Positions 1,776 to 22,400 of a stretch of 63,730 nt of DNA are shown here, piece by piece. Under the pieces are notes generated by a model. The model worked only from the letters and a program-made list of their open reading frames with translations. It was not told where the DNA came from and ran no database searches. Every line of letters begins with the position of its first letter. Positions within the stretch are counted from its first letter, which is position 1. The DNA comes from Pseudomonadota bacterium (GTDB lineage Bacteria > Desulfobacterota > Syntrophorhabdia > Syntrophorhabdales > Syntrophorhabdaceae): positions 1-63,730 of the forward strand of contig JAPLKA010000052.1 of the NCBI GenBank assembly GCA_026388315.1, read 5' to 3'. The position numbers and the translations under genes were made by a program.

Positions 1776-2141
1776 TTACTTTATAAATTGACTAATTTCT
1801 TTCGCAAAGGTGCGCGTATTGATCGGCTTACCGATAAATCCGGCGTTCGTTATGTCTTTTATCTCTTCTCTGCCTTCTGCCAGTACAGAAGCAGTCACAA
1901 AAACAATGGGAATATCGCATGTCTCTTTGTCTTGACGTAATATCCTGGCGGCTTCGGTACCACGCATATCTGGAAGCCGCACATCCATAATTATGATATC
2001 CGGTTTTTCTCTCCTGGCAATGACAATTCCGCTGGAAGCATCTTCAGCTTCAAATACTTCGAAGCCGGCGACCTCCAAAAGGTCTTTTTCCAGCATCAGA
2101 TTGTTTCCATTATCATCGACAACCAATGCTTTCTTCCTCAT
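1776..2141 (-). CDS. Single-domain response regulator (CheY-like)
   Basis: The 121-residue protein is a receiver domain alone. It has D9-D10, phosphoacceptor D53 in IIMDVRLPDMRG, a T/S position in FVTAS and the conserved lysine in GKPINTR. It has no output domain, so it probably relays phosphate or acts by protein contact. Its GGAGGG ribosome-binding site lies inside the last codons of the upstream histidine kinase, with only 1 bp between kinase stop and this start. The two genes are therefore probably translationally coupled and the kinase is the expected partner. Confidence 0.88.
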   Translation of the reverse strand: MRKKALVVDDNGNNLMLEKDLLEVAGFEVFEAEDASSGIVIARREKPDIIIMDVRLPDMRGTEAARILRQDKETCDIPIVFVTASVLAEGREEIKDITNAGFIGKPINTRTFAKEISQFIK

Positions 2142-2142
2142 C

Positions 2143-3759
2143 TCACACCACCCTCCCGGATATAATAGGCAAAGTAAACCAAACCGAGGTGCCTTTATTT
2201 AGCCCCTCTGATTCTACAGAAAGCTTCCCGCCGTGCAGCTCAACCATCTTTCTAGAGAGCGGTAAACCGAGTCCGGTCCCCTCAGTTACCCGAGAATATG
2301 GGGTATCGACACGGAAAAACCCTTCAAATATTTTCCCCATGTTTTCAGGCGCGATACCAATCCCCGTATCCCAGACCACTATTTCTATCTCGGAATCCGC
2401 TTTCTTCGCCCTCATGCCAATTTTACCGCCCTCGGGGGTAAATTTAACTGCGTTTGAAAGCAGGTTGTAAATGATCTCTTTTACCTTGAGCTCATCCGCC
2501 TCAATATTCGGCAGATCTTCGGCTATTTCAAGCAACATTTGAAGCTTCTTTTTACTGACCATATCCGCTACCAGCAGTGAAATCTCACTTAATAGGCTTT
2601 TCATGGGTAAGCTGGATAAAGCCAGCTTCATCTTTCCGGCTTCAACTTTTGCCATATCAAGTATCTGATTTATCAGTAAGAGAAGGTGCTTTCCGCTGGT
2701 TAAAACATTATTAACGTATTTCTTCTGCTTCTCATTCAGCGGTCCGAAAGTCTCGTCGGATAATACCTCAGAGAAACCGTTAATGGAGTTAAGCGGGGTC
2801 CTGAGTTCATGCGACATGTTAGCCAGGAATTCAGATTTTACCCGAGCGGTACGTTTTAACTCGGTGGCCAACTCCTTTAACTCTTCATGGGCTTTTTCCA
2901 ACCCATTTTCTATCTCCCTGCGCTCGGTGATGTCCTCAATGGCCAGGAGAATGATCCGTTCTTTGCCCAACACTCTTTGAATCTGCCGGGCATTCAAAAG
3001 CATGATGCGCCTGCCAATGGTAGCAAAATCGTGTTCAACTTCATAGTTATCAAAGGTTGCCTTTTGGGGAAGGATGGTTTCCAGCAGTTCCCGCAGCTTG
3101 GGGATATTCCACTGTTTATTGCCCAGGTCATAAATAAGCTGCCCTACAGTCTCTTCAGGTTTTACCTTGAAGACTTCATAGAAGGAACGGCTGACCGTGA
3201 CCACCCTGAGATCTTGATCCAAAGAAATTAAGGGTTCACGCACGGTGTTGATGATGCTCTCAGCGAATTCACTGGCTTCATCTGCGGTTTTTTTAATAAC
3301 TTCCAGTTCTTTTCGGGTCTTTTCCAGGCCGGCTTCTATCTCCCTGCGCTCGGTGATGTCCTCAATGGCCAGGAGAATGATCCGTTCTTTGCCCAACACT
3401 CTTTGAATCTGCCGGGCATTCAGAAGCATTATGCGCCTGCCAATGGTAGCAAAATTGTGTTCAACCTCATAGTCATCAAAGGTTGTTTTTTGGGGAAGGA
3501 TGGTTTCCAGCAGTTCCCGCAGCTTGGGGATATTCCATTGTTTATTGCCCAGGTCATAAATAAGCTGCCCTACAGTCTCTTCAGGTTTTACCTTAAAGAC
3601 GTCATAGAAGGAACGGCTGGCGGTGACTACCCGTAAATCCTGGTTTAGAACGATTAAGGGTTCACGTATGGTGTTGATCATGCTCTCAGCAAATTCACTG
3701 GCTTCATCTGCGGATTTTTTAATAACTTCCAGTTCTTTTCGGGTCTTTTCCCAGCCCAT
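2143..3759 (-). CDS. Sensor histidine kinase with two near-identical PAS domains, probably 5'-truncated
   Basis: The 538-residue protein has two PAS units (about residues 1-142 and 143-284), a HisKA domain with phosphoacceptor H317 in NMSHELRTPLNS, and a HATPase domain with N-box NLLSNAVKF and G-boxes DTGIGI and GTGLGLPLS. No membrane segment is seen, so it is probably cytoplasmic. The PAS units differ by only a few substitutions and are repeated with a 426-bp period in the DNA. Upstream of the ATG the sequence still matches the end of a further PAS unit, but one extra C in the run near 3751 shifts the frame and a stop follows. The ATG therefore seems to be a secondary start created after truncation. 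It has AAGGGG upstream. It heads the operon with the two regulators downstream. Confidence 0.88.
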   Translation of the reverse strand: MGWEKTRKELEVIKKSADEASEFAESMINTIREPLIVLNQDLRVVTASRSFYDVFKVKPEETVGQLIYDLGNKQWNIPKLRELLETILPQKTTFDDYEVEHNFATIGRRIMLLNARQIQRVLGKERIILLAIEDITERREIEAGLEKTRKELEVIKKTADEASEFAESIINTVREPLISLDQDLRVVTVSRSFYEVFKVKPEETVGQLIYDLGNKQWNIPKLRELLETILPQKATFDNYEVEHDFATIGRRIMLLNARQIQRVLGKERIILLAIEDITERREIENGLEKAHEELKELATELKRTARVKSEFLANMSHELRTPLNSINGFSEVLSDETFGPLNEKQKKYVNNVLTSGKHLLLLINQILDMAKVEAGKMKLALSSLPMKSLLSEISLLVADMVSKKKLQMLLEIAEDLPNIEADELKVKEIIYNLLSNAVKFTPEGGKIGMRAKKADSEIEIVVWDTGIGIAPENMGKIFEGFFRVDTPYSRVTEGTGLGLPLSRKMVELHGGKLSVESEGLNKGTSVWFTLPIISGRVV

Positions 3760-3774
3760 TTTCTATCCCCTTAC
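2897..3774 (-). repeat. 426-bp tandem duplication of a PAS-encoding unit
   Basis: The same sequence recurs with a period of 426 bp (142 codons): the landmark CGCTCGGTGA starts at 2921 and again at 3347. Its first part appears a third time at 3774, now offset by 427 because of one inserted C. The two full units are nearly identical at the DNA level, so the duplication is recent or is kept alike by gene conversion. Confidence 0.85.
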
Positions 3775-3996
3775 GCTCGGACTAAACAATGGAAGACCTT
3801 TATATATGTCACTGTCTATTTGCAGTATCTATAAGGATTATTAATCGTTTTTTTTCTTTTTGCAAGTCAAATACGTATTGCGGACGAATAATGTTTTCTG
3901 TATATCCATATTGGAGATTGCTGGATGAAATCTTGTACCCTTGGCTAACATTGGTTGTTATTTGTTACAGGAAGTTTCCCAGCATCCTTGTGAATC
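3775..3996. other. Gene-free stretch between the kinase and the repeated leader
   Basis: No convincing coding region is seen here. Homology to the PAS unit ends at about 3780, and the remainder is AT-rich sequence. It probably holds the promoter of the minus-strand signalling operon, but I cannot point to clear -35 and -10 boxes. Confidence 0.4.
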
Positions 3997-4220
3997 TTCT
4001 ATTTCCTCAATAAAAAGTGAATATTTCAGCTATACATGATATAAGTGAAAATAGTTGAAGTTAATATTTCTATGTCTTGATATAACCACAGGGGGTGACT
4101 CGTGAGGTTCTATTTCCTCAATAAAAAGTGAATATTTCAGCTATACATGATATAAGTGAAAATAGTTGAAGTTAATATTTCTATGTCTTGATATAACCAC
4201 AGGGGGTGACTCGTGAGGTT
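3997..4220 (+). repeat. Perfect 111-bp direct repeat of a gene leader
   Basis: Copy 1 starts at 3997 and copy 2 at 4108. They are identical over the whole unit and a further two bases. Each copy carries the ribosome-binding sequence AGGGGGTGACTC followed by a GTG start. In the second copy this opens the TPR gene at 4213. In the first copy the GTG at 4102 opens a frame of only nine sense codons. Upstream regulatory sequence of the TPR gene has thus been duplicated, or the assembly has collapsed or expanded a repeat here. Confidence 0.9.
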
Positions 4221-5256
4221 TATGGAATCGAAGCATATTGCATCTCATCAAACAGTTTCCTTGCTCTGCTTCACCATTATTATAGGTATGTGCATATTTT
4301 TCCCCTCCCCTGCGTCAGGAGAGATGAAAACCGTTACACACACAGTCAAACAGCCATTTGGGGGTAGCCAATCCCCTGACGATGCAAGGATAGCAGCAGT
4401 AGCACGAGCAAAAAGGGAAGCTCTGGAAATGGCAGGGGTCTACGTGGAAGGTCTCACCGTTGTCAAAAACTCACAGGTCGATAAAAATGAAACCCTTGCC
4501 CTGACAGCAGGGGTACTCAAGGCAGAGGTAGTTTCTCAGGAGAATTATGCTACAAAAGATGCCTTCGGCGTTGCGGTAGTGGTCAGAATAAATGTAGATA
4601 CCTCTGTCCTTGAAGGCCGGGCAAAGAAGCTCCTTGCAGATAGGACACATCTTGAACAACTCAATCAGGCAAGGAAGAAGGAAAAGGATTTGCTCGATAC
4701 AGTTGCAAAACTGCAGGAGGAAAACAAGCGTCTCACGAAAAGTAAGCAAAGCACGGAACAGTTAAAAAGCCAGTTTCAAGAAGCCTCACAGGGTCTCATG
4801 GCAGTGGACTGGTTTGATAAAGCAACAGCGCTCTGGCAAGACGGCAAATACTCTGACCCCAAAAAAGCCATTGATTATCTGAATAAAACTATTCGTCTTA
4901 AACCTGATTATGCCGATGCATACTATAACCGGGGGGTAGCATACACGAAGCTCGGTCAGTACCAACAGGCAATTAAGGATTACGATGAGGCTATCCGTCT
5001 TAAACCTGATTATGCCGATGCATACTACAACCGGGGGATAGAATACGACGATCTCGGCCAGCACCAGCAGACTATTAAGGATTATAATGAGGCTATCCAC
5101 CTAAAACCTGATTATACAGATGCGTACTTAAGACGGGGGGCAGCATATTTACTTATGGGTGATAAAACACATGGGTGCAGTGATGCTCAGAAGGCGTGTA
5201 GTTTGGGGAATTGCAAGGCATACGAATTGGCAAAAAGGAAAGGTGATTGCCGTTAA
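4213..5256 (+). CDS. Exported TPR-repeat protein with N-terminal LPP20/FlgT-like domain
   Basis: The 347-residue protein starts at a GTG behind AGGGGG. Residues 1-36 form a signal peptide ending in SPASG. Residues 37-130 resemble small periplasmic domains that begin with a DDARxxAxxRAKREAL-type helix, such as the FlgT N-terminal or LPP20-like domain. A charged coiled coil spans about 145-185. Three TPR units follow at about 215-320; two share runs such as DYADAYYNRG and are near-identical in DNA, so they were recently duplicated. A short Cys-containing tail ends the protein (GCSDAQKACSLGNCKAYE). It stands alone behind the duplicated leader. Function is unknown; a periplasmic scaffolding role is an inference. 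Confidence 0.8.
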   Translation: MRFMESKHIASHQTVSLLCFTIIIGMCIFFPSPASGEMKTVTHTVKQPFGGSQSPDDARIAAVARAKREALEMAGVYVEGLTVVKNSQVDKNETLALTAGVLKAEVVSQENYATKDAFGVAVVVRINVDTSVLEGRAKKLLADRTHLEQLNQARKKEKDLLDTVAKLQEENKRLTKSKQSTEQLKSQFQEASQGLMAVDWFDKATALWQDGKYSDPKKAIDYLNKTIRLKPDYADAYYNRGVAYTKLGQYQQAIKDYDEAIRLKPDYADAYYNRGIEYDDLGQHQQTIKDYNEAIHLKPDYTDAYLRRGAAYLLMGDKTHGCSDAQKACSLGNCKAYELAKRKGDCR

Positions 5257-5512
5257 GCGACAACCGACTTATTCCTGTATCCTTTTCGGTCTTAATCGGG
5301 TTTTAAGTTTTTGTAACATCTCAGATTATTACCAGATGAAATATTGTATGTTGAGGGTAAGCGCTAAATGCTTGATAACAGGAAGGCAGTGTGTATCTCA
5401 GGCAAAAACCGTGCAGCCTCTGTTTCGGTAAGAAGCATAAAGCCTTGTTTTAGGCTCATATTAGGACAAAACATAACACTTGTCAGTGCCTGACCTCTAC
5501 GATTCCTTCGTG

Positions 5513-6724
5513 TCAGTATTCACCCTCACTTGGCTTCCAAATGCGACGATCGGCTGTTCGTTTGGGCGGACACTTTGGTTCTCGTTCCATTTTCAATTTG
5601 TAACAGAGTGCTTTTATATCATCAGCTCGTTCTGCAATAAGATTTTGGGCTGCTTGTTTCAGCTTTTGTATATTGTCATGACTTACATCATCCAAATCTC
5701 CCTTAAAACCTTTCAATTCCGGCTGAAAACGATAGTATTTATATTCGGGCTCAGGCATTATGCGATATAAGTCATTTTCTACACCAGGGTCTGAAAAAAC
5801 GATGTTTACAAGAGGTTTGGCCCAGCCCAAAAGCCCCCAATTGTATGCATCTTCAAATGGTATTTTGATAGGAACAACCCCGGTGCCCAGTGAAACCAGG
5901 AGTATGTCGTTCGAGGGGGGTTCTGCCCGGGCGTGCGGAGCAGACAGTAGTGCATAGAGGGCTGGATTGTTAGCAAAAACACCTCCATCAATCAGAGTGA
6001 TGTAACCCTCGTCATTAATATTTTTTGGAACCGGAAGCCTTACCGGAGGAAAGTAGGTTGGAGCAGCTGAAGCTGCGCGTGCAACATCACGCATAAAGAA
6101 CACATCGTTCGGGTATCTGCTGCTATCAAAGAAATAATGCTTCTGCTCCGGTTCAATCTCGTAAGCTGTAATCTGCACATTAGTCAAAGCACTATCCAGG
6201 GGGGTATCTCCGAAGAAATCTTTCAAAACAGTCTCTATGCCTTCAGTTGCATATTTTGGTCGAAAAAACGGTCCGGTATTTTTTAGGATGCTGAAGCGAG
6301 AGGAGAAAATAATTTCACCCTTGGTCTCATAAAAATCAGCCAACTGCTGAGCTGTATACTGAGGCTTGTATTGATCCTGGAATTCTGGCTTGGAAAGCCC
6401 TAAAGCTATGATTCCGCCAGTTGAAGTACCAACCATCAGATCAAAAAGTTCGGCAATAGGTTGTTTAGTTTGATTTTCTATTTCGGCCAATAAAAGCGCA
6501 GGAATAATACCGCGGATGCCTCCACCATCGATTGAAAGAACTCTTACACAGTGCCCAGGTCTTGGCCCGGGAATCGACGAAACCGCAAATTCAGTGGCCC
6601 CTCCTGGAGTAAATTGTTTAGGGAGTGTTGGTTTCGGGGGCACAGTAGAGGCACACGTCGCCATTATAACAGTTATAGAAGCGGTTAATACTATCCTTAC
6701 AGCGATATGAGCTAAAATAGCCAT
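5513..6724 (-). CDS. Patatin-like phospholipase
   Basis: The 403-residue protein has the complete patatin signature: oxyanion-hole GGGIRG (67-72), nucleophile Ser101 in GTSTG, and catalytic Asp246 in DGGVFANNP. Such enzymes use a Ser-Asp dyad to hydrolyse acyl chains from lipids. The first 25 residues are hydrophobic and end in MATCAS, which resembles a signal peptide with a poor lipobox (Thr at -1), so it may be exported or membrane-anchored. The region before the ATG shows no strong ribosome-binding site. Neighbours are unrelated, and the gene appears to be a single transcription unit facing the TPR gene. Confidence 0.87.
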   Translation of the reverse strand: MAILAHIAVRIVLTASITVIMATCASTVPPKPTLPKQFTPGGATEFAVSSIPGPRPGHCVRVLSIDGGGIRGIIPALLLAEIENQTKQPIAELFDLMVGTSTGGIIALGLSKPEFQDQYKPQYTAQQLADFYETKGEIIFSSRFSILKNTGPFFRPKYATEGIETVLKDFFGDTPLDSALTNVQITAYEIEPEQKHYFFDSSRYPNDVFFMRDVARAASAAPTYFPPVRLPVPKNINDEGYITLIDGGVFANNPALYALLSAPHARAEPPSNDILLVSLGTGVVPIKIPFEDAYNWGLLGWAKPLVNIVFSDPGVENDLYRIMPEPEYKYYRFQPELKGFKGDLDDVSHDNIQKLKQAAQNLIAERADDIKALCYKLKMEREPKCPPKRTADRRIWKPSEGEY

Positions 6725-6999
6725 TAGTAGGAAATAGGATCAAGCCTTGAATTATCAGTTTTCTTTCTCAATCACACCCCTTTATTCATTCTCCTGCTAT
6801 TTCAATTATTTTGCAAGCAAAAATTTATATGTGGCATTGGTGAATATCATTTGAAATCGAGCATATGAAACGCCAGGGGTAAAAACTCTCTTTCAGGAAG
6901 AAGCGCGCGGCTAACCCCTCTACGCTCTACGCTCCTTTCACTGCCTTCATCACCGATACGCCGATACACCGTCTCGCCGGTTCGGTTCTTCTCGCCTGC

Positions 7000-7938
7000 T
7001 CACACCTGTGGTGGCTTTTTCTTCTCCGGAGCAGGTTCCGGGGCAATCGGTATCCGCAGTTCCACTAAAGCGCAGAAAACATGCAGCTCATCAAGAAGCG
7101 TTACAAGGTCTGGCTTTGTATATTTTGCGATGCCCGTCTCAATGCTTGACTCTACGGATCGCAAGTTGGCAATCTGTTTTGTCATAGGTATGAGCTTTGT
7201 GACAACTGGGTCCGGTTTGACCTTCTTATATGCTGTGAGCAATTTCTCAAGTGCGCGATAGGTTGTGGGCGTTTTCATAATGGCCTCAAAAATCTTGTCG
7301 CGATCTGGACAATCGAGGTTCGAGGCAAAGAGATACCCCTGGGAAACGGGGAGATTTCCTGATCGGATTTCTGCCTGAATCTCAGGAGGAAGCTTTAAAA
7401 GTGAAATCGTGCGAAGCATTGTCCGTGTTGACTTTCCGGAGATTTCAGCAGTTGTTGACAATGTGTCAACAATTTCCTTGATCAGACTTTCAGGTCTCAT
7501 CTCGTATTTCACCAGATCGCTCATCACCCCGTCCACATCATACCCCTTATCAGGATGCCTTGCCTGAATATATGCCAATATCCCCTTTGCCTGATCCATG
7601 GGGTTTAAGTCTTCCCGTTGGAGGTTCTCGGTGAGTTGAAGTGCTATCGTCTCACCTGATTCCTTGCCTGCTTCTATGACCCTCACCGGTACTAATTCAT
7701 GTCCGAGTTGCCGGGCTGCCTCCAGACGTCTCTCCCCGCAGATGAGGCTGTATAAGTCGCCGTCTCCTTTTGTCACAAGGAGAGGCTCTAAGATACCCTT
7801 GTCTTTGATTGATTGCACAAGCGACTTAAATGAGTCTGTTTCTGTACTAATAGTAGATCGTACCTGTTCCAGCACTACGATATTACCTACTGGAACGTAC
7901 AAGAACTCAGGATTTACACTTGTCTTCTTCGTCGCCAT
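7000..7938 (-). CDS. ParB/Spo0J-type nuclease-fold DNA-binding protein
   Basis: The 312-residue protein has a ParB N-terminal domain (about 12-105) with CGERRLEAA and the downstream ENLQREDLNPMD motif, then a helix-turn-helix region (about 140-215) around STRTMLRTISLLKLP. The C-terminal 90 residues are less typical and end in a Pro/Lys-rich tail (APEKKKPP). GGAGG stands seven bases before the ATG. No parA gene is next to it and no parS-like palindrome was recognised nearby, so it may be a stand-alone or plasmid-derived paralogue rather than the chromosomal ParB. A fragment similar to its middle occurs at 37988-38047. Confidence 0.85.
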   Translation of the reverse strand: MATKKTSVNPEFLYVPVGNIVVLEQVRSTISTETDSFKSLVQSIKDKGILEPLLVTKGDGDLYSLICGERRLEAARQLGHELVPVRVIEAGKESGETIALQLTENLQREDLNPMDQAKGILAYIQARHPDKGYDVDGVMSDLVKYEMRPESLIKEIVDTLSTTAEISGKSTRTMLRTISLLKLPPEIQAEIRSGNLPVSQGYLFASNLDCPDRDKIFEAIMKTPTTYRALEKLLTAYKKVKPDPVVTKLIPMTKQIANLRSVESSIETGIAKYTKPDLVTLLDELHVFCALVELRIPIAPEPAPEKKKPPQV

Positions 7939-7994
7939 ATTATTTCCTCCCCTTTTTAAATTCAGGTTTTATCAAAACCTTTATTTTGCCGCCC

Positions 7995-8205
7995 GCTTAC
8001 GCTCGACAAATACGGACAGGAGCAGACAAGAGATTCTGTTTTTTTTGCCCCGCCGACAATGGCGGGCCAAAACTTTCAGCCCTAACGGGCGAATATATTA
8101 AATTTTACTCTGCCCGAAGGGCATGGAGTATATCGGGCGCCAGGTCGGCAGCCGATATAAAATATCGTCCAGCTTTTGTCTGCGTCCGTCTGTGGCTAAA
8201 TAAAA
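7995..8205 (-). repeat. Dispersed multi-hairpin repeat, family 1, copy 1
   Basis: About 210 bp here match, in inverted orientation, 62624-62830. Both copies carry a row of short inverted repeats: TATCGG with CCGATA, GCCC-TTC-GGGC, GCCC-GTTA-GGGC, and a longer hairpin. In copy 1 that hairpin is built on CCCGCC/GGCGGG. Its loop (read on the minus strand ATTGTC) matches the loop AATGTC of the second copy, although the stem bases differ. One end reads GCAGACAAAAGCT. It fills most of the 477-bp gap between parB and the cation exporter. Below 8352 a TTCACTA heptamer array begins. Confidence 0.75.
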
Positions 8206-8351
8206 AGGTTTTTCACGTCTTTCTTGACATTATTGTTTTGTTGAAATTCTAACCCTGCAACACGGAAAATTCAAATATTTTCTTATGTTCTGGCATTTTA
8301 AAGATAAAAGTGGACTCCGCAAAGGAACTAAAGATCGGATTGCGGTCTTTT

Positions 8352-8371
8352 CCACTATTCACTATTCACTC
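8352..8371 (-). repeat. Short TAGTGAA heptamer array
   Basis: The sequence CACTATTCACTATTCACT is a small array of the heptamer seen at many other intergenic sites in this window. The rest of 8206-8415 holds no gene that I can support. Confidence 0.6.
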
Positions 8372-8415
8372 ACGGTGGATTATAAAATCAGGAAAGAAGC
8401 GTAAGCTGCGGGTGA

Positions 8416-9330
8416 TTAACGCTTGCCCGCATTCCTTGTGATTTTACAGGTCAAATCTGTCAGCTCACAGTCATACGAGCATGGTTCGATGTGGATTACA
8501 ACGTCGATAGTGTCAATGTTGTTCTCCAATTCATGTTCAATTTCACTTGCCAGTTTATGAGACTCATCGATGTTTGCCTTTCTGCAGATGAGTAAATGAA
8601 AATCCACGTATTTTTTATTGCCAGCAAACCTGCTTCTGAACTTATGGTATCCGGCGTAAGGATATGGGGTTTTTTCAATAATGCTTTCAATTTCTTTTTC
8701 AACAGGTTCAGGAATCCTCGTATCCATAAGTCCGAGGAAACCTGTCTTTAATATCTTAATTGCAGAGAAAATGATGATGAAACCGGTGATAACGGCAAAA
8801 AGATAATCGAAATAGGTCATACCGGTATAATAGGTAATTATAATCGCTGCTATAGCGGCTGAGTTTGAATAAAGGTCGCTTGTATAATGGAGGGCGTCTG
8901 CCTTCAGTGGGTTTGACCCTGTCTTGTTGCCGATCCTTCTCAAGACCGTTGAGATGACTGCACTAAAGGCAAGTGAAAGTATCATTACCCCGAGATCGAA
9001 AACTGAATAGGCAATGACTTCTTTGCGGAGAAATTTCTCTACTACGCCATGAAATATTGTGATTCCTGAAAAAATTATAACAAAGGACTGGATGACTGCG
9101 GCGATATCGGCAGCCTTTCCATGACCGTACTGGTGATCGATATCAGCAGGTTTTGCAGCCTTTTTTATGGCAAAAAAATTTATGCCGGACATAAAGACGT
9201 CAAGGAGGCTATCGAGACCGGAAGCCGCAACCGCCATGGAACCGGATATTAATCCCACTGCAAATTTACTCAATGCAAGGATAGAGGCTGATATAATTGC
9301 AAATAACGAGGCTTTTTGTTGTATATCCAT
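8416..9330 (-). CDS. Cation diffusion facilitator (CDF) family metal exporter
   Basis: The 304-residue protein has six predicted membrane segments in its first 205 residues and a cytoplasmic C-terminal domain (about 210-290). Metal-site motifs are present: D-x-x-x-D in TM2 (SGLDSLLDVF) and H-x-x-x-D in TM5 (HYTSDLYSNS). This matches the FieF/YiiP type, a proton antiporter for Zn2+, Fe2+ or similar ions. The H-x-x-x-D form suggests Zn/Cd rather than Mn, but the substrate cannot be fixed from sequence. The gene is monocistronic and divergent from the secreted-protein region. Confidence 0.88.
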   Translation of the reverse strand: MDIQQKASLFAIISASILALSKFAVGLISGSMAVAASGLDSLLDVFMSGINFFAIKKAAKPADIDHQYGHGKAADIAAVIQSFVIIFSGITIFHGVVEKFLRKEVIAYSVFDLGVMILSLAFSAVISTVLRRIGNKTGSNPLKADALHYTSDLYSNSAAIAAIIITYYTGMTYFDYLFAVITGFIIIFSAIKILKTGFLGLMDTRIPEPVEKEIESIIEKTPYPYAGYHKFRSRFAGNKKYVDFHLLICRKANIDESHKLASEIEHELENNIDTIDVVIHIEPCSYDCELTDLTCKITRNAGKR

Positions 9331-9421
9331 GTATTGGCCGTTTAGATTACTAATATAAATCTATTTTGAAAGGCAACACAAGCTTTTCTTGATCGTAACC
9401 GACTTGATGCTTATACAGGCC

Positions 9422-9449
9422 TTGACTATAGCTTTAAATGTGGTATAAA
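9422..9449 (+). promoter_or_regulatory. Putative sigma-70 promoter for the 9587 gene
   Basis: TTGACT (9422-9427) and TATAAA (9444-9449) are separated by 16 bp. The expected transcript would start near 9456 and have a leader of about 130 nt before the gene at 9587. Confidence 0.5.
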
Positions 9450-9586
9450 TATCCGATGTGTATTATCTGTCCGGCGTTGAATTCCAATGCATTATTATTA
9501 TATTAGGTATGGTTTTTCAGATAGAATGATAACGAACAACCAAAGTTATTATGCAAAACTCGCCTTATGGCATTAAGGAGACAATG

Positions 9587-10576
9587 ATGAAAAAAAATAC
9601 AATTATATCTATGATTGTGATATGTTATGCATTATTTTTTGAAGTCGGATACGTCCATAGCCTTGGTTTTTCCATGGAAGATTTTAAATCGGTTGTAAGG
9701 GCAAGGATAGAGGCGACCGGCGGCAGGGACACATGGCATTATCGTGTGTTCAACAAAGACCCGGTAACGGGCAAGTACGGTTCCTGTGTCGATGCGTCTC
9801 GCGATCGCGGGAAAGACATTGCTACCGCTATCAAAAGTATGCAGTATTATGGCAGGTTTGGTTTATTGGGCGCAAGAGTCGGTACAATGAGCGGATACAA
9901 TGCACTTTCCATTGTTCCGGAAGCGATAAGGAAGGAATATATAGGCACCATAGGTGCAGGGAGCATGCACACATACAATGTGGTTGAAATCTATGACGCC
10001 AATGGAAAGTCATATTACATGGTTGAAGTGGACAATTACCTGAAGCCCATATTTATATCTGCCCACGAAAACAGATCGGTCAACTGGGATGCAGACAACA
10101 CCTGGCTCATTGAAGACATTCCTCCAATTATAAAATCTGTTCAGGTAAGCAATCGGCCATCTGCAACGATATGTGATATGGTTGAGTTTCGGGTTTACGC
10201 CGATGCTGCGCCATGGGTAAAGAAAAACTTGAAATATAAATGGATGTACGTCGGAGGAACAAAGATATTAGGAACAGGAGATACTTTAAGATTCCGCGCT
10301 GACTACCCGTACACCTACAATCTTAAGGCAATTATTTACCAGGATACTACCGGTGAAGAAGTGGACTTTGCCGAAGCAATCGGAACGATGACAGTCCAGC
10401 AGACATCTCCCCCTCGCAGCAGTTGCGATACCGGACGGGCATATACCGGAAGGAAGTATACCTCACCACATGCTCAATCCTCAAGACCGTCTGTTTCGTC
10501 GCCACAGCAACCCGCTGATAAAGTAAAAGATGCCCTTGATGTGTTCAAAAAAGCCGGGGGGTTTTTTGGTAAATAA
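9587..10576 (+). CDS. Exported protein with possible papain-fold Cys-His-Asp domain and Ig-like domain
   Basis: I choose the ATG at 9587, six bases after AAGGAG, giving 329 residues; an ATG at 9551 in the same frame lacks such a site. A signal peptide (to about residue 27) precedes a domain of about 150 residues. Its YGSCVDAS, MHTYNVVE and VEVDNYL motifs supply Cys, His and Asp in the order and context seen in transglutaminase-like and papain-like folds. Residues 180-290 look like an Ig/PKD-type beta domain. The C-terminus is Ser/Pro-rich and ends in an amphipathic helix, VKDALDVFKKAGGFFGK, whose near copy is encoded at 14378-14458. I do not recognise a named family. It lies 133 bp upstream of the caspase operon. 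Confidence 0.75.
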   Translation: MKKNTIISMIVICYALFFEVGYVHSLGFSMEDFKSVVRARIEATGGRDTWHYRVFNKDPVTGKYGSCVDASRDRGKDIATAIKSMQYYGRFGLLGARVGTMSGYNALSIVPEAIRKEYIGTIGAGSMHTYNVVEIYDANGKSYYMVEVDNYLKPIFISAHENRSVNWDADNTWLIEDIPPIIKSVQVSNRPSATICDMVEFRVYADAAPWVKKNLKYKWMYVGGTKILGTGDTLRFRADYPYTYNLKAIIYQDTTGEEVDFAEAIGTMTVQQTSPPRSSCDTGRAYTGRKYTSPHAQSSRPSVSSPQQPADKVKDALDVFKKAGGFFGK

Positions 10577-10709: not shown

Positions 10710-11579
10710 ATGAAAAAGTATTGCGTCGTTTTTATGGTGCTGTTTCTTATCTGTTTCCTGGGCAACAGCGTTTCTGCCCAGACACCAAAAGGCGCCAAAG
10801 CCCTTTTTGACAGTGGGGAAGGTACTACCGTAAAGATGTCTTCGGGTCCGCGCGCGTCTGCCCCGGCCGCCACTCAGGCAGCCGCCCCTGCAAAATACGT
10901 GGGAATTTCATACAAACTTGTCCTGCTGCGTCCTGACGGGAGGTTTGACATTGTGCCCAAGTCACGTGTTTTCAGGTCAGGGGAACGTCTTAAACTCCTC
11001 GTGAGAACGAACAAACCGGGTTATCTCACAATTTTGAATATAGGAACGTCAGGCAATACAAATGTCTTATTTAACGATTATATTGAAGGACTAAGTATGC
11101 TCGAAATCCCGAAAGCAGGCAATTTCCGTTTTTCGGGTGACCCGGGTTCTGAAAAGCTGTTAATCATGCTTTCCGGCAGTCCGAACCCGCTTGGATCTCC
11201 CCGGACAACAACCGTTGCACAGGCTTCGGGGGCAATGTCGCCTCTACCGCCTCCTCCTGGGCCTACAGCAGATGCGGGTAACCTTCCGCCTCCTCCTCCA
11301 CCCCCTCCTCCCGGCGCCACAGCAGATGCAAGCAGTCTTCCGCCTCCTCCTCCCGCAATGTTAGCAAACCTTCAGGGCTCAAAGGATATCGTGATGGATG
11401 ATAACCAGAAAACATCTTATGCCGTCATATCACCGAAAAACGGCTGGAAACCTGAACCCAAGGGCAAAAAGGATATCGTTCTCGAATCGAGTGGCGGTGA
11501 AAATTATGGTGTCATTCCGGCATCATATATAGATGATGGGAAGATACTTACCCTCGAAATCAACTTAAGACATAAATAG
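10710..11579 (+). CDS. Exported DUF4384-domain protein with polyproline linker and two KDIV motifs
   Basis: The 289-residue protein has a signal peptide cleaved near residue 24. Residues 60-160 match the DUF4384 pattern (YKLVLLRPDGRF, SGERLKLLVRTN, GYLTILNIGTSG), a beta domain often fused to bacterial caspases. A proline-rich stretch follows (about 170-215). The C-terminal 67 residues hold two related modules: GSKDIVMDD (223-231) followed by SYAVISP, and GKKDIVLES (252-260) followed by NYGVIPAS. The caspase two genes downstream has GSKDIVLED followed by GYGKVLISAS. It is the first gene of a tight operon (9 bp to the next) and could be a substrate, inhibitor or adaptor of that caspase. That role is an inference. 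Confidence 0.82.
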   Translation: MKKYCVVFMVLFLICFLGNSVSAQTPKGAKALFDSGEGTTVKMSSGPRASAPAATQAAAPAKYVGISYKLVLLRPDGRFDIVPKSRVFRSGERLKLLVRTNKPGYLTILNIGTSGNTNVLFNDYIEGLSMLEIPKAGNFRFSGDPGSEKLLIMLSGSPNPLGSPRTTTVAQASGAMSPLPPPPGPTADAGNLPPPPPPPPPGATADASSLPPPPPAMLANLQGSKDIVMDDNQKTSYAVISPKNGWKPEPKGKKDIVLESSGGENYGVIPASYIDDGKILTLEINLRHK

Positions 11580-11588
11580 GAGACTCTG

Positions 11589-12347
11589 ATGAAAATGAGA
11601 TATATGAAACTTTTTGCTGTGTTGTCAATTTTTGTTTTTGTGCTCTCATCATGTGCATCAATGCTCCCATCTCCCGACCAGATTACGTCGGAAGAGGATT
11701 TGATTGCGGCGAGGAATAAATGTTTTGCCATGTATACCATCGGCGGTGCCGGCCTTGGTGCGATTGCCGGCGGACTCATAAAAGGTGACTGGGCAGGCGC
11801 CGGCGTAGGGGCAGCAGTAGGAGGCGCTATCGGATTTGCCTATGCCTGGGGCAAGTGCCTCTCCCTATATTCCACACTCAAAAGCCAGCCTGCTGCAGGC
11901 TATGCCGAAACTGCTCAGAAAGCTAATTACAACTCATCACAGGGTAATGTTGTTAAGATTGAAGACTTTAACATAAATCCTACTAAAGTGCTCCAGGGCG
12001 GCTCAGTCGGTCTGAGCGGATCGTATTATGTGATGGCGCCTGAGGGAACAAAAGAAATGAAGGTCACCGAGACAAGGACAGTCAAATATTTTGACCCGAA
12101 AAAGAGTGAATTTGTTGAACTCGGCAGCGTTGACCAGGAAATTACTGCAGCGCCTGGTTCGAGAAAGGCAGACGGTAAATTTGACATACCGAAGGATGTG
12201 CCTGAAGGCCGCTATATAATCGCCTTTAAAGTTTCAGCAGCGGGCAAAGAAGACACAGTTGCAAAAGAAATGCTCGTCCAGAAGGCAGCAGCTTCAAACG
12301 CAACAGCAAACACAGAGGTAGCCTGTTTGACCGCAACCATGTGGTAA
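11589..12347 (+). CDS. Glycine-zipper lipoprotein
   Basis: The 252-residue protein has a lipoprotein signal peptide with lipobox LSSC (Cys about 22). Residues 55-95 are a glycine zipper (GGAGLGAIAGG and GVGAAVGGAIGF), a motif that inserts into membranes and packs helices. The C-terminal 130 residues form a predicted beta domain containing KVLQGGSVGLSGSYYVMAP and a late GRYIIAFKVSAAGKED strand, like Ig-type or extracellular sensory domains. It sits between the DUF4384 and caspase genes with gaps of 9 and 12 bp, so it is probably part of the same envelope complex. It could anchor the complex or form a membrane-active element. Function is otherwise unknown. Confidence 0.75.
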   Translation: MKMRYMKLFAVLSIFVFVLSSCASMLPSPDQITSEEDLIAARNKCFAMYTIGGAGLGAIAGGLIKGDWAGAGVGAAVGGAIGFAYAWGKCLSLYSTLKSQPAAGYAETAQKANYNSSQGNVVKIEDFNINPTKVLQGGSVGLSGSYYVMAPEGTKEMKVTETRTVKYFDPKKSEFVELGSVDQEITAAPGSRKADGKFDIPKDVPEGRYIIAFKVSAAGKEDTVAKEMLVQKAAASNATANTEVACLTATMW

Positions 12348-12359
12348 AGAGGTGGTATC

Positions 12360-13610
12360 ATGAAAAGATTTTTTCATTACATATTGACAGGATGTATTGC
12401 ATGTTTGTTTATAACCGCGGCATGTCTCCTGCATGCCGCAGAGTCGCCTGTCACGGAGTCTCACATTAACGGAATAAATGATCTCTTTAAAAACAATAGC
12501 ATTGCAAAGGGATTTGTCGAATTTGATCAGTACAAAAGGGTGATGCTGAAGGGCGAATACTCCGACGAAAAAGAGGTGGACCTGGCATTCTCGCTCGCCC
12601 AGACCGTTGTCGGTATAAAGTGGGTATCTCCCGTCACCCCGGAAAACATCAAGGTTAAAGAGTGGGAGAGGAGGCTCGGCAGCCTCTTCAGCAGGGCAGC
12701 CGTTCTCAAACCACGCGTGTCTGGCGGGGCGCCGGGGCCGGTAAGGAATAAGTATGGCCTTGTTGTAGGTGTCGGTAAATTCAAGAGTAATATTAACCCT
12801 TTGCAGTATTCTGTCAGGGATGCAGGAAGTTTTTATAATTTTCTTGTTGATCCAAATAAAGCAGCCTTTTCAAAGAGCAACGTCTACTTTCTCACTGATC
12901 AAAATGCAACAAGGGATAATATAGCGCGGTATCTGGATGGGATAAAAAAGGCTGCCGGTCCCGACGACCTTGTGGTTATTTATATGAGCAGTCACGGAAC
13001 GCCGCCGGACAAGTTCGGCGGAGTCAATGTAGTGACCTATGATACTGAGGTTAAGCCCCGCGAGAGGGTCTGGCAAACTGCTGTTACGGAAACTATGCTG
13101 AAAGATTTCATCGAGAATTTGCAGGCAAAACGGCTTGTCATGATACTCGATACCTGCTACAGCAACGGTGCCTACAGGGCTGTACCAGGCTTCCTCCCCG
13201 CCGGAGGAAAGTCACTCGGTGCGGCTGAGGATGAAGAGGGTTATGGCCTCTCAAAAGATTACGGCAAAAGACTCTTAGGATCAAAGGATATAGTCCTTGA
13301 AGACGAGCCCAGGCCAAAGGCGGGCTCCGCAAAAAGCGTTGATTTACAGGATGGCTACGGAAAAGTGCTGATAAGCGCAAGCAGTGCAGGGGAAAAATCT
13401 TGGGAATCCGATACGTTACGCAATAGCGTATTCACTTACTATTTTGTAGACGGGCTTGGGCGATATCGGGGATCGGTTAAGGATGCCTTTACCTATGCAA
13501 AACCCCTCGTATCACAGAAGGTAAAACAGGAAAAGGGGGCCGACATAGAGCAGACCCCGCAGGCCATGGCAACCAATACGGATTGGAATATGCGATTTAT
13601 TCAAAGATAG
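12360..13610 (+). CDS. Exported caspase-like cysteine protease (peptidase C14 type)
   Basis: The 416-residue protein has a signal peptide ending near LHA (residue 28). A caspase-fold domain begins at about residue 128 (NKYGLVVGVGKF, QYSVRDAGSF). It has catalytic His212 in MSSHG and catalytic Cys266 in LDTCYSNG. Between the Cys strand and the p10-like segment (GYGKVLISASSAGE, about 335) lies a charged linker of about 65 residues that includes GSKDIVLEDE (307-316). In caspases such a linker is where the zymogen is cut. The upstream DUF4384 protein carries two versions of the same motif. Residues 30-125 are a separate domain resembling BON or short helical domains. Export to the periplasm is unusual for a caspase-fold enzyme. 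Protease activity is expected from the intact dyad; specificity is unknown. Confidence 0.88.
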   Translation: MKRFFHYILTGCIACLFITAACLLHAAESPVTESHINGINDLFKNNSIAKGFVEFDQYKRVMLKGEYSDEKEVDLAFSLAQTVVGIKWVSPVTPENIKVKEWERRLGSLFSRAAVLKPRVSGGAPGPVRNKYGLVVGVGKFKSNINPLQYSVRDAGSFYNFLVDPNKAAFSKSNVYFLTDQNATRDNIARYLDGIKKAAGPDDLVVIYMSSHGTPPDKFGGVNVVTYDTEVKPRERVWQTAVTETMLKDFIENLQAKRLVMILDTCYSNGAYRAVPGFLPAGGKSLGAAEDEEGYGLSKDYGKRLLGSKDIVLEDEPRPKAGSAKSVDLQDGYGKVLISASSAGEKSWESDTLRNSVFTYYFVDGLGRYRGSVKDAFTYAKPLVSQKVKQEKGADIEQTPQAMATNTDWNMRFIQR

Positions 13611-13638: not shown

Positions 13639-14289
13639 ATGAAAAAAGGTTTTTTAATCGTTTTCCTGACATTATGCGTTCTTTTAACAGGAGCTGTCGG
13701 GTGTCAGCAGAAGCCGGAGGCGCCGGTCGTTGCAAAACAGGAGACATCACTGCCCCCGCCACCTCCACCACCCCCACCGCCGGGAACCCAGCAATCATTA
13801 CCTCCACCACCCGGAGCACAACAGGCAACGGCAGCCGGTGAACCGAGCCTTGAGGTAAGGACCCACATTAAACAGGGCCTGTCGTACGTGAGCGTTGCAA
13901 AGAATGCAAATTCATCTGGCATATTCAACGAAAACATCGAGAATGCTATCAATGAATTTTCCAATGCCACAAAGAAAGACCCCAATTATGCTGAGGCATA
14001 TTCAAACAGGGGAGTGGCCTACATGATGCAGAAAAAGTACAACAAAGCGCTCGATGACCTGAAAAAGGCAAAAGATCTGAAACCGGACAGTGCAAACATA
14101 CGTTATAACCTTGCATCCTGCTATTCTCTCATGGGCAGCGTCGATTATGGCCTCGATGAGCTCGATGCCGCTCTGGCAAGAGGTTTTAACAGCTATGATT
14201 CTCTGAGAAAGGACCCTGATATTGCAAATTTAAGAAAGCATAAGGAATTCAGGAAGATCCTGGAGAAGCACAAAGTCTTTATTACATAG
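13639..14289 (+). CDS. Proline-rich TPR lipoprotein
   Basis: The 216-residue protein has a lipobox (TGAVGC, Cys about 22) and then two runs of proline (about 36-58) of the same style as the linker in the DUF4384 protein, including SLPPPP in both. Residues 95-165 contain two TPR units (YAEAYSNRGVAYMMQKKYNKALDD type) and a third degenerate repeat. The C-terminus (LRKDPDIANLRKHKEFRKIL) matches the tail found in many bacterial TPR proteins. It starts behind AAGGAGGGTTACAGC, 28 bp after the caspase gene, and is the last gene before a strong terminator. A scaffold role in the caspase complex is likely but inferred. Confidence 0.8.
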   Translation: MKKGFLIVFLTLCVLLTGAVGCQQKPEAPVVAKQETSLPPPPPPPPPPGTQQSLPPPPGAQQATAAGEPSLEVRTHIKQGLSYVSVAKNANSSGIFNENIENAINEFSNATKKDPNYAEAYSNRGVAYMMQKKYNKALDDLKKAKDLKPDSANIRYNLASCYSLMGSVDYGLDELDAALARGFNSYDSLRKDPDIANLRKHKEFRKILEKHKVFIT

Positions 14290-18281: not shown

Positions 18282-19478
18282 ATGCATAAACAAATAATAA
18301 TCATACTGGTTTTTTTGTTGTTTTTGTTCTTCAATCTGCAAGCTATTATGGGCAGCGATATCGAATCGCCAGGCATATGCCATGCCCAGGCTACAGGTAC
18401 AACCGCAGGCGCTTATGATCAAAAGAACAATATGGAGATTGCAAAAAAGTTCCGTACAGAAGGGGAGGTCTTGCAGAAGAAGGGGCAGCTTGCCGCTGCT
18501 ATCGATAAATACGAGCTAAGTCAGAGGTATTATCCTGACACAAAACTTGCTGACCATGTTAAGGTGCTCCGCAATGCCCTTGCAAAACAGTATATGGAGG
18601 TAGCCAAAAAGCTTCGGGCAGAAGGCGCTGTGCTTCAACAACAGGGCAAGATAGAGGCTGCAATAGTAAAATACGAACAAAGCCTGAAATACTACCCTGA
18701 TCCCGAACTTGATGCGCATCTTGCAAAATTGCAGGACGCCCTGTACGTTTCCAAAAAGCCGAAGATTGAGCTGGAGGGCGTGCCTGAAGGGTTCCGCAAC
18801 GAATTGGCCGTTATAGAAAACATAAAAAAAGACCCAAGCAGGGCCAATATCGAAGCACTTGCAGCAACAAGGTATCAATATGCTCTGAGCTTGACTAAGA
18901 TGGCAACTAAGAAAAATGATGAAGACGCGCAAATGCTTGCCCTTGTTTATGCAAAATCCGCAACCGAGCTTGCGCCTAACAATCCGGACTACTGGTCCCT
19001 GCTCGGGCAGACATACGACAGGATTGGCGCCGACGGTGAGATGGCCGGTATTATGGCTGAAGACGCGCTGCAAAAGGCCGTTGAATTAAGCCCCGAAAAC
19101 AATATACTTCGGTTGCTTCTCGGTCAGTCCTGCTACAGGCATGGAAATTTTTCTTCCGCTCTTGTCCAATTCGAGGCCGCGTTAAAGAGAGATTCAAAAA
19201 AGATTTCGCCTCCGACAGTTGCAACGATGTGTTCAGCCTATATTCTGGATTCACAATATGACAGGGGGGTCGCTTTTTTCAGAAGTATACTTGAAAAGCA
19301 ACCCGATGCGGACAGTGCGCGGATAGCCCTTGCAATACTCGTCCACAGGCAAAGCAACAACGTACAGGCCATGGAGGAACTGGACTGGATAATAAAGAAA
19401 AAGGGAGCTTCTGATGAAAACCGTGCATATGCGCTTACCTTGTTTGAGGAATGGAAGTCTCAGGGGGCGAAGCCATGA
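18282..19478 (+). CDS. Exported TPR protein
   Basis: I place the start at the ATG at 18282, nine bases behind AAAAGGAG, although the frame is open from 18207. This gives 398 residues with a signal peptide of about 35 residues. Two related 45-residue helical units follow (KKFRTEGEVLQKKGQLAAAIDKYE and its second form), then a TPR array (about 180-385) including YWSLLGQTYDRIG and LRLLLGQSCYRHGNFSSAL. The stop overlaps the next start (ATGA), so it is translationally coupled to the 1175-residue protein and probably works with it in the periplasm. Confidence 0.75.
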   Translation: MHKQIIIILVFLLFLFFNLQAIMGSDIESPGICHAQATGTTAGAYDQKNNMEIAKKFRTEGEVLQKKGQLAAAIDKYELSQRYYPDTKLADHVKVLRNALAKQYMEVAKKLRAEGAVLQQQGKIEAAIVKYEQSLKYYPDPELDAHLAKLQDALYVSKKPKIELEGVPEGFRNELAVIENIKKDPSRANIEALAATRYQYALSLTKMATKKNDEDAQMLALVYAKSATELAPNNPDYWSLLGQTYDRIGADGEMAGIMAEDALQKAVELSPENNILRLLLGQSCYRHGNFSSALVQFEAALKRDSKKISPPTVATMCSAYILDSQYDRGVAFFRSILEKQPDADSARIALAILVHRQSNNVQAMEELDWIIKKKGASDENRAYALTLFEEWKSQGAKP

Positions 19479-22400
19479 AACATAGATTTTTGATATTTTT
19501 TTGTCTGGCCGCATATGTTTTTTTCACGGCGCATCCTTCTTCCTGCAACACAGAAGACCTTGAAACGCGCAGGATGCAGTATCAAAACGATGTTGCGGCA
19601 GTCACTGAACGTTTTGAAGGAATGATTCCTCCTGAAGCGTGCGATGCGGACGGTTTACCGATGAAAGAACACCCGGCATACAAAAAAGTAAAGGCGCAAT
19701 ATGATGCCGCAATAATTGATGTTCAAAAAAGCTATGAAAAGTACAATCTGGAGCGTATTCAGCAGCATAACGAAGTAATTAAGGAAATCCCTCCTGAACT
19801 TGCAAAAAAGATAAAATCAACCGGACGGGACCCGGCAAGCATCAACAGCGACATTGACCTTAGCGCTGATTTTGACGCAGCGAATGCATATTCAAAAGCA
19901 ATGGGAAAAAAGCCAGGCAATAATGTAATCCCGAAAGGCGACAGATTTGTGATTACAGGCAAACAGGATACGACCGTATGGATAAATAAACGTCCGGGTT
20001 CCGATCCTGTGGGCAGTTCCTCCTTGGAGGCTGAAATTGCCCACAAGGCGGCAGTTGACAGCGATGCCTATTTGTCGATAGGTGATAATACCTCAAAGAA
20101 AGTGGAGTTGCTCGACCACACCAGAAAGTTTGTTGACGCCAAATCAACGGGAGATATACGCGTTCAGGCAAAAGCGGTCAATAAGATAATCAAGTCTTCC
20201 GGGGTCGCCCCTTCGGACGCCGGCATTGCCGGGCAGTCGGAAAAGATTTACAATGGCGCTACCGCAGAGCAGGCCGGTATTGTTGATTTCGGAGACCCCC
20301 CTGAGGTAAAGAAGCAAAAGATAAATAACTTCACAAAAAGAGGGGAAAAGACGATTGTAGACATCAATAAAAACGTAGATGGCAAAAGCGTGCAGGAATA
20401 CAACGATCTGGACAAACAGATAAACGATGCCGTTAAGGCAGGAGACAAAAACAAGGCTGTAAAGCTTAAAGAAACTAAAATTATAAACAAGCTGAAAGAA
20501 AACGGTTCTTTGAAAGCGATAGCCGAAAGCGACCCGGAATTTGGAGGGAAGCTTACCGGAAACGAGGTTACAAAAGTCACAAACACCGATGGAAGCGTTG
20601 TTTATAAGGACAGCGCCGGTAAAACGATATCCAAAAGCGAACTTGTAAACAGGGTCGGGAACAACGTATATAAAGACCTCAAATCCACGTTTAAATCCAT
20701 GGTCAACCCCGCAGAACCTGTAATCAGCTATGTAAAAACACCGACGAGCGTTAAGGCAGGCGCAGGCGCTGTCCTGGCCTTATTGGTGTTTGACAAAATA
20801 TACAGAGATTTAAAAAAAGAAGAAAAACCATGGGAAAGCTCCATAGAAACCGCAGGCAAGGCGCTTGTCTATGCAACGGGCATACCCGGGGCCATAGGCA
20901 TTGGAGAAGCGGCAGCGCAGAAGGCGGTCAAAGAGTATCAGGATTGCATCAACCAGGGCAGAAAAGACTGTTCCAAGGCAATGACAGTGTTGAAGGCAAA
21001 CCTTTACGCGGTCAATGACGCCAATACCGCGTTCTGGACAGGCATTGCAGACATACCCAATCTGGTTATCAATACCCCGCTTCGCTGGGAGACCGACAGC
21101 GCCGAGGAAACAGCAAAGGAAATGGAAAAACGCGTTGAGGAATACCGTCCTATAGGGGCTTTAAGAAAGCTTGCATTGGAACTTTCAAGGCTGGCGGGTG
21201 AGGCGGATACCCAATTGAGATCCTTTGTTCCTCTCGATGAGCAGGCATGGAACCTGCAAAAGCAGGTGAGCTCTATAAGCAGCAGTCAACTGCAACTGGA
21301 CGGGTCTATTAAAAAGCTTAAAAACCTTTGTACATCAGCAAAAGAGATAAACAAAAAATCCGCAGCCGTGAAAAATCTTGCTGAAATATATGCCAACATT
21401 ACAAAGCGGCTTACTGCTGTAAAACAATACGCCCAGCAAACATGCAGCGCTTCAAACCAAACCATAAAAGCCTTTAGCGAAGGGAAAATTGATGAAAAAG
21501 GCCTCGAATCATACAAGGCCAATATAAAATCGACATACCTCGATCAAGCCGAGACGCAGTACGCCTATGCGCAACAGGAAATGACGTCGCTGAAAGGCAC
21601 TGCCGGCGAAAAGACCGATCTTGCAACTCAGGCCGTGAACGCGCAGAAGGAATTTACGAAATATATGAATTTTATACAGGCTGTTTCTAAAGGCGCCGCC
21701 AAACTCACGGATGACTACGTGAAAAAGATCGTTCAGCTTAACGCCACGGTCACAGAGTTCAATAATGCACTTGCCAGGTTTCGTACAGGCGTGAAATATT
21801 TTTATAATGAGAAAGACGTCAAGGAACAGCAGGAAATTTTAGAGATTGCCCGTCAGGTTGATGCGCTGAAAATAGATATCAAAAGCGCCGTGGAACACGA
21901 GGGCAAGATCAAAGACTTTTACCGGTTTACTGTTGATGTGACAAAGCTCGCACAATTAAAACCCGAACCATGTCCGGAGATGGATCTGCTTATTTCACGG
22001 TCCGGGGGTGATGACCGGTCGGTTCCGGCCTTTGAGGAGGCGGGAAAAATGATCGCTGAAGGGCGTAATTGTTACGCCAATTTGAAAAGTGCTTCACAGG
22101 TTAAGGCCGAGGTTTCAATCAGGGTATCGCCTGCAAGCGCCGAGGTATTCGTTGGCGATACGCTGACTTTTGTTGCATCGCTTACTCCCGAAACAAAAGG
22201 CGCGCAGAATTATTTCAGATGGACGGTGAACAACCAGGAATCGGGCAACAAAAGCAGTTCGCAACCCTTAAAGATCGGGTGTAAAGGCAGCCACACAGTC
22301 AGGGTGGAGGCGTTCAGGGCTGTAAGCGGGGCAGCTCAGAAAATAGGTGAGGCAACATATTCGCTTATTGCAAAAGAAAAAGAACAGGTAAAGGCAAAGG

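Follow-up and report, generated by a model that had tools for sequence, protein, structure and literature searches.

A short motif shared by an exported caspase-fold protease and its DUF4384 neighbour suggests a dedicated protease-partner module

A caspase-fold protease and a DUF4384 protein encoded in the same operon-like run of a Syntrophorhabdaceae genome share a short motif, G-x-K-D-[IL]-V, which occurs once in the linker between the p20 and p10 segments of the protease and twice in the tail of the DUF4384 protein. This layout was present in 23/23 complete operons, that is, operons of Desulfobacterota and Nitrospirota in which both genes are present, most of the genomes being MAGs. As the motif is kept in all of these operons and its wording co-varies between the two proteins, a functional link between them is well supported. 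The best explanation of the whole, to which we would give an even chance, is an exported protease with a dedicated exported DUF4384 partner, the two being joined by the motif, which would be read by the cleft of the protease.

The window (the whole stretch of DNA that was analysed, 63,730 nucleotides) contains four genes in an operon-like run on the forward strand, encoding a DUF4384 protein (289 aa, 10710-11579), a glycine-zipper lipoprotein (252 aa, 11589-12347), the caspase-fold protease (416 aa, 12360-13610) and a TPR protein (216 aa, 13639-14289). The first three genes are in the same reading frame, with two stop codons between. Signal peptides, plausible by eye in both the protease and the DUF4384 protein, suggest that both are exported. 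The lipoprotein was assigned from an alignment and a weak match to PF05433 that falls below the cut-off; its C-terminal domain is Ig-like in look, as judged by eye, and it contains no copies of the motif. The TPR protein, recognised by Pfam TPR models and with a lipobox-like N-terminus by eye, appears to be accessory, and its gene lies away from the caspase gene in the operons of G663, G759, G657 and G422. A search of the operon against an anti-phage defence library returned generic caspase and TPR models only.

The protease belongs to Peptidase_C14 (PF00656, 66.4 bits against a cut-off of 21.4, E = 4e-18) and is metacaspase/orthocaspase-like. Its closest solved sequences were plant and yeast metacaspases, and by fold (Foldseek) it was nearest to MALT1 and metacaspases. 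A preliminary description of this DNA had placed a catalytic dyad at His212 and Cys266 and the motif GSKDIVLEDE at residues 307-316, and all were found there: the His212 codon (SSHG, 12993-12995) and the Cys266 codon (DTCYS, 13155-13157) precede the linker motif (13278-13307), in which Lys309, itself invariant, is the proposed P1 residue. Both dyad residues are invariant across the caspase alignment, Cys266 corresponding to Cys139 of the plant metacaspase AtMC4 (PMC7206013). Also invariant are S210, D264, S347 and E349, the counterparts of AtMC4 S84, D137, S350 and D352, the last two having been aligned by eye. The S1 pocket is accordingly predicted to be acidic, with a preference for a basic P1 residue, and Asp264 is proposed as its acid; outside the animal caspases, C14 proteases favour Arg or Lys at P1 (PMC5756287). 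Within the linker, the motif forms an island of conservation, the mean majority fraction being 0.87 at residues 303-312 versus 0.51 at 313-332. The AF2 model, which is of modest confidence overall, gives a pLDDT below 50 over residues 268-329, which include the linker. A BON domain, suspected by eye at the N-terminus of the protease, had no Pfam match.

The partner protein matches PF14326 (37.6 bits; cut-off 27), and its parts were read from alignments and an AF2 model. It consists of a signal peptide (by eye), a beta-sandwich at residues 88-158, a variable Pro-rich linker, the tail with its two motifs and a final strand. As the preliminary description had claimed for the gene two places upstream of the caspase, the tail contains GSKDIVMDD (residues 223-231, 11376-11402) and GKKDIVLES (residues 252-260, 11463-11489). 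These segments are of low confidence or disordered in the AF2 model, again one of modest confidence, in which the C-terminal strand stands out more clearly and is likely to complete the sandwich. Low model confidence at the linker of the protease and at the motifs of the partner is consistent with flexible, accessible segments. A comparison of the DUF4384 model with PDB folds gave nothing at E 1e-3, the matches being many, weak and Ig-like.

That the KDIV motif is shared, as first noticed in a single operon, proved to be above chance. In a profile comparison of all 8-residue windows across the 23 operons, GSKDIVLE of the caspase and GKKDIVLE of the second DUF4384 copy formed the top match with a score of 31.4, whereas 500 shuffles gave a mean maximum of 16.0 (SD 2.4) and a highest value of 25.0. 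When the operons are taken one by one, ungapped local comparison of the two proteins puts the motif first in 22/23 and second in the remaining one (G657), the first copy in the DUF4384 tail being the best match to the caspase linker in most of them. Single-operon scores often come close to the maximum of shuffled sequences, and it is by repetition that this result gains its strength. Local matches of the caspase to the lipoprotein and to the TPR protein scored at the null. The layout of one copy to two persists down to identities of 46% for the caspase and 31% for the DUF4384 protein, and over 69 motif sites the basic residue is Lys in 68 and Arg in 1, followed by Asp in 69/69. Moreover, a DNA pattern for KDIV-hydrophobic-acidic has only four matches in the 3.8 Mb genome of the window: two in the DUF4384 gene, one in the caspase gene and one elsewhere (contig C84, minus strand), in a gene which we take to be that of the DnaB replicative helicase. 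The copies of the motif differ in their codons (in G663, 0/6 are identical), which indicates that it is the amino acid sequence of the motif that is maintained and rules out recent duplication or gene conversion as its source.

The two genes also occur together. Orthologues of the caspase (full-length) and of the DUF4384 protein were found in the same 11/39 genomes of the family, with gene order kept. In a phylum sample of 395 genomes, full-length matches to both were confined to an identical 4, and among 396 Nitrospirota genomes to an identical 10. Searches of plasmids gave one further full operon only, and none was found on the viral contigs searched. In one genome of the Desulfobacterota (L066, G423), the lipoprotein and a caspase whose linker reads GAKGIVVEE are present, but no recognisable DUF4384 partner was found.

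By the preliminary description's own criterion, homologous operons lacking the motif in either protein would have refuted the idea, and none of the 23 complete operons lacks it. The description had also proposed to test whether the motif changes together in both proteins, and such change was observed in three forms. In G422 and G711, which are sister Nitrospirota lineages, KDLV replaces KDIV in all three copies. This concerted change from Ile to Leu is one event on one branch and is suggestive only as evidence of co-change. A more distant case comes from the plasmid NZ_CP155075.1 of Paraburkholderia sp. PREW-6R, which carries lipoprotein, caspase and DUF4384 genes, the caspases being 28% identical. 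There the wording is of the form YxxKGIxF: the single copy in the caspase linker reads YTSKGIRFSDDG (YTSKGIRFSDD), and the DUF4384 tail has two copies, YAAKGIAFAAED and YAAKGIAFSDDS, with the wording YAAKGIAFSDD beside YAAKGIAFAAED. At the motif, the two Paraburkholderia proteins align with a local score of 59, the maximum from shuffling being 41. Since this operon also has KG, the KG in the linker of L066 is not proof of decay.

The third form was found with a different protease. In G403, G831 and G293, which belong to another family of the same phylum, DUF4384 proteins each have two copies of the TRDLVF[DE] type, and a neighbouring exported TPR-CHAT protein has one copy of the RTRDLVFEDD type, reading RRTRDLVFEDDEEDE, SATRDLVFEPEDE and GTRDLVYEEDE. 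CHAT proteins share the caspase fold and form a protease family other than C14. The CHAT domain (PF12770, cut-off 24) was recognised in G403 (105 bits, 6e-30) and G293 (193.5 bits, 7e-57), the G831 protein being assigned to CHAT by resemblance only. The motif of the CHAT proteins lies outside the p20/p10 linker, at about residue 400 in G403 and G831 and about residue 45 in G293. In the partners encoded in these operons, the motif sits on both sides of the DUF4384 domain. It is the best local match in 5/5 CHAT-DUF4384 pairs, with scores of 49-65, and in G403 the genome-wide matches to a strict RDLVF-acidic pattern (5/5) all fall in the CHAT gene and two DUF4384 genes. When wordings were matched by operon type, the within-type match was the best of 24 assignments, with the proviso that four types are few and that KDIV and KDLV are close. 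As evidence of co-change, the Paraburkholderia and CHAT operons appear much stronger than the KDLV lineages. Because the motif changes together across unrelated bacteria and with replacement of the caspase by CHAT, it very probably serves the protease and the DUF4384 protein for recognition of one another or of a site common to both.

As for what is recognised, the reading that we prefer is one in which the general motif, [KR]-[DG]-[IL]-x-hydrophobic-acidic, would present its invariant basic residue as P1. The single protease copy lies in a stretch that is probably flexible, namely the p20/p10 linker in the caspases and the TPR region or mature N-terminus in the CHAT proteins. The protease's own cleft would recognise all three copies, with Lys or Arg entering the acidic S1 pocket. 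Acting in cis, the motif would serve for self-inhibition or self-processing; recognised in trans, it would turn the two-site DUF4384 protein into either a substrate or a pseudo-substrate that competes for the cleft. With a basic residue, a predicted acidic S1 pocket and a copy at the position of self-cleavage, cleavage of the partner is plausible; it would take place in the envelope, where the lipoprotein might have some effect. Of the preliminary description's protease-substrate reading, the functional link through the motif is the part that is well supported. However, the residues that are best conserved follow the Lys on the prime side (D-I-V-L-E), whereas metacaspases and separase read mainly the non-prime side, so that recognition of P1 alone would be insufficient to explain the motif. 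This suggests that docking beyond S1 matters, and we therefore keep docking without cleavage as the main rival.

In such docking, the motif would form a short beta-strand that either fits into a groove, on the DUF4384 sandwich or on the protease, or pairs with itself (antiparallel, K...E), and the two copies of the partner would compete with that of the protease and thereby restrain or free the zymogen. A conserved core that spans the prime side, its strand-like pattern and its self-complementary ends agree with this, as do the flanking of the DUF4384 domain by the motif in the CHAT operons and the place of the CHAT copy, by which a fixed autocleavage position becomes unnecessary. Against it, the basic residue is the most invariant of all and exchanges between Lys and Arg, as expected of P1 in this protease clan, and both AF2 models leave the segments with the motif disordered or at low confidence. 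On balance we consider this account, taken as a whole, unlikely, while holding it above the remaining alternatives. Alternatively, a third protein (the glycine-zipper lipoprotein of the operon, or some factor of the envelope) could be a receptor that binds either tagged protein, much as XIAP BIR3 does. The lipoprotein gene does lie between or beside the other two in every caspase operon read, including that of Paraburkholderia, and there is precedent for a motif of a caspase linker that is common to another protein (PMC3760131). Yet the CHAT operons gave no recognisable lipoprotein homologue: a small exported protein considered for this role aligned to it with an hhalign probability of 1% and was rejected, and a more general receptor is hard to reconcile with motif copies that are essentially confined to the operons in the genomes of the window (G000) and of G403. 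The TPR protein was discarded as a general receptor because several operons have the motif although no TPR gene adjoins that of the caspase. We find a common receptor distinctly improbable. Least probable of all is the absence of a functional link, in which case the tails of DUF4384 proteins and the linkers of caspases would have arrived at a common strand-like sequence independently. Some exceptions would fit such convergence: G367 has a DUF4384 protein with two copies and, in the stretch read, no recognised CHAT or caspase gene, and the adjacent DUF4384, TPR and caspase genes of G142 were searched for a shared segment and gave none, which counts against the preferred reading too. Four wordings each matched within the operon, the strict ratio of one copy to two and the perfect co-occurrence of the genes all speak against it. 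In G126, clustered caspase and DUF4384 proteins were searched for a motif-like match and none was found.

The preferred reading, recognition in the protease cleft, has parallels among known systems. In AtMC4, Lys225 of the linker sits in the acidic pocket (S84, D137, S350, D352) as an active-site plug that is cleaved on activation (PMC7206013). The caspase fold, acidic S1 residues, linker Lys and, as proposed here, a basic P1 are common to both, and self-processing may occur in the window caspase as well. AtMC4 is, however, a plant enzyme dependent on Ca2+, it has no partner with copies of the linker motif, and its motif sequence is unrelated (PMC7206013). The autocleavage sites of separase, a caspase-related protease, lie in an insert of its TPR-like domain and resemble two sites in its substrate SCC1, with Arg at P1 (PMC12609080), and securin has a pseudosubstrate motif (PMC6858450). 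The CHAT copies in or before the TPR region, the two copies per partner and the sharing of the motif between protease and partner recall this arrangement, but separase is eukaryotic and intracellular and uses a non-prime [DES]-hydrophobic-ExxR motif, whereas here the motif is a prime-side [KR]D[IL]V and the proteins are predicted to be exported. A peptide of the caspase inter-subunit linker is mimicked by another protein also where the neo-N-terminus of the caspase-9 linker (ATPF) and Smac (AVPI) both bind XIAP BIR3 (PMC3760131). That system needs a free Ala neo-N-terminus and a BIR receptor; here the residue after the basic one is Asp (Gly in Paraburkholderia) and never Ala, and no BIR domain was found in the operon. 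The BASS motifs are likewise short, occur in one to three copies in the products of adjacent genes (NLR and Bell) and have diversified in families (PMC9815663). They differ in being amyloid-type and in serving intracellular NLR signalling, while the present motif is a charged [KR]D[IL]V..[ED] of exported proteins, and no NLR or Bell domain was found among the operon products.

Two bacterial systems come closer in their components. In cyanobacteria, a caspase p20 and DUF4384 occur together in 23 listed proteins, but there DUF4384 is fused to the orthocaspase in one chain, and no shared linear motif is reported in the accessible part of that source (PMC8283722). Craspase (TPR-CHAT with Csx30) is, in the part of its description available to us, a bacterial caspase-fold protease whose substrate is a gene neighbour; it differs in being RNA-guided and intracellular, and that part mentions no motif common to the enzyme and its substrate (PMC10028731). 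The preliminary description had named no precedent for a system of this form, and none was found in the literature searched, subscription journals being mostly out of reach. The independent motif types are few, and export was judged by eye. We tentatively propose, at slightly less than even confidence, that these operons form an undescribed class of exported module, in which a C14 or CHAT protease and a DUF4384 protein are wired by a private, co-diversifying code (1:2). Such a module would be an envelope counterpart of separase, SCC1 and securin, whose partner titrates the protease or is cut by it to give an envelope response.

Sequence alone here gives a dedicated partner, an exact peptide, a likely P1 residue and natural variants of the code, and the proposal is thus directly testable. 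For most bacterial caspase homologues, no substrate or regulator is known to date. DUF4384, which is found with caspases and has no assigned function, gains a first mechanistic handle, and what appears to be the same wiring occurs with two families of caspase-fold proteases, C14 and CHAT. Lastly, a second pair of motifs that had been put forward, GYGKVLISAS of the caspase with SYAVISP and NYGVIPAS of the DUF4384 protein, was no better than chance and was rejected: the pair YGKVLISA and YGVIPASY reaches 11.4, less than the mean maximum of the shuffled profiles. YGKVLISAS is the conserved core strand of the caspase before p10.

The mature N-terminus of the DUF4384 protein (residues 26-38; 10785-10823 of the window) is conserved as GAKA[IL]FDSGEG, which on sequence resembles a degenerate third copy of the KDIV-type motif otherwise carried once in the caspase p20/p10 linker and twice in the DUF4384 tail. 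At the equivalent N-terminal place, the DUF4384 protein of the distant Paraburkholderia sp. PREW-6R operon (plasmid NZ_CP155075.1) reads YTAKSLFFGEDDS, which is closer to the caspase linker of that operon, YTSKGIRFSDDG. In L121 (comparison genome G126), positions 1882-9683 encode a single cluster of multiple exported proteins of the caspase-like and DUF4384 kinds, among them a DUF4384-caspase fusion, and no KDIV-type match was found among these proteins.

The glycine-zipper lipoprotein bears an additional C-terminal SH3-like domain in three comparison stretches (L066 1842-2828, L062 970-1977 and L064 4957-5970), matching PF08239 in L064 and hinting at a peptidoglycan-facing role. In G403, G367 and G831, a conserved small exported protein, Ig-like by eye (L118 9516-10034, minus strand; L119 6020-6538; L139 11221-11718, minus strand), is encoded next to the DUF4384 genes with two motif copies; it shows no detectable relationship to the caspase-operon lipoprotein.

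The window genome and that of L063 each encode, downstream of the caspase operon, an exported-looking protein of very large size whose C-terminal part is PKD/Ig-like (window 19451-23002; L063 7921-13212); a relationship is possible. Upstream of the operon in the window is a lipoprotein-like patatin phospholipase gene (5513-6724, minus strand), with GGGIRG, GTSTG and DGG motifs recognised by eye.
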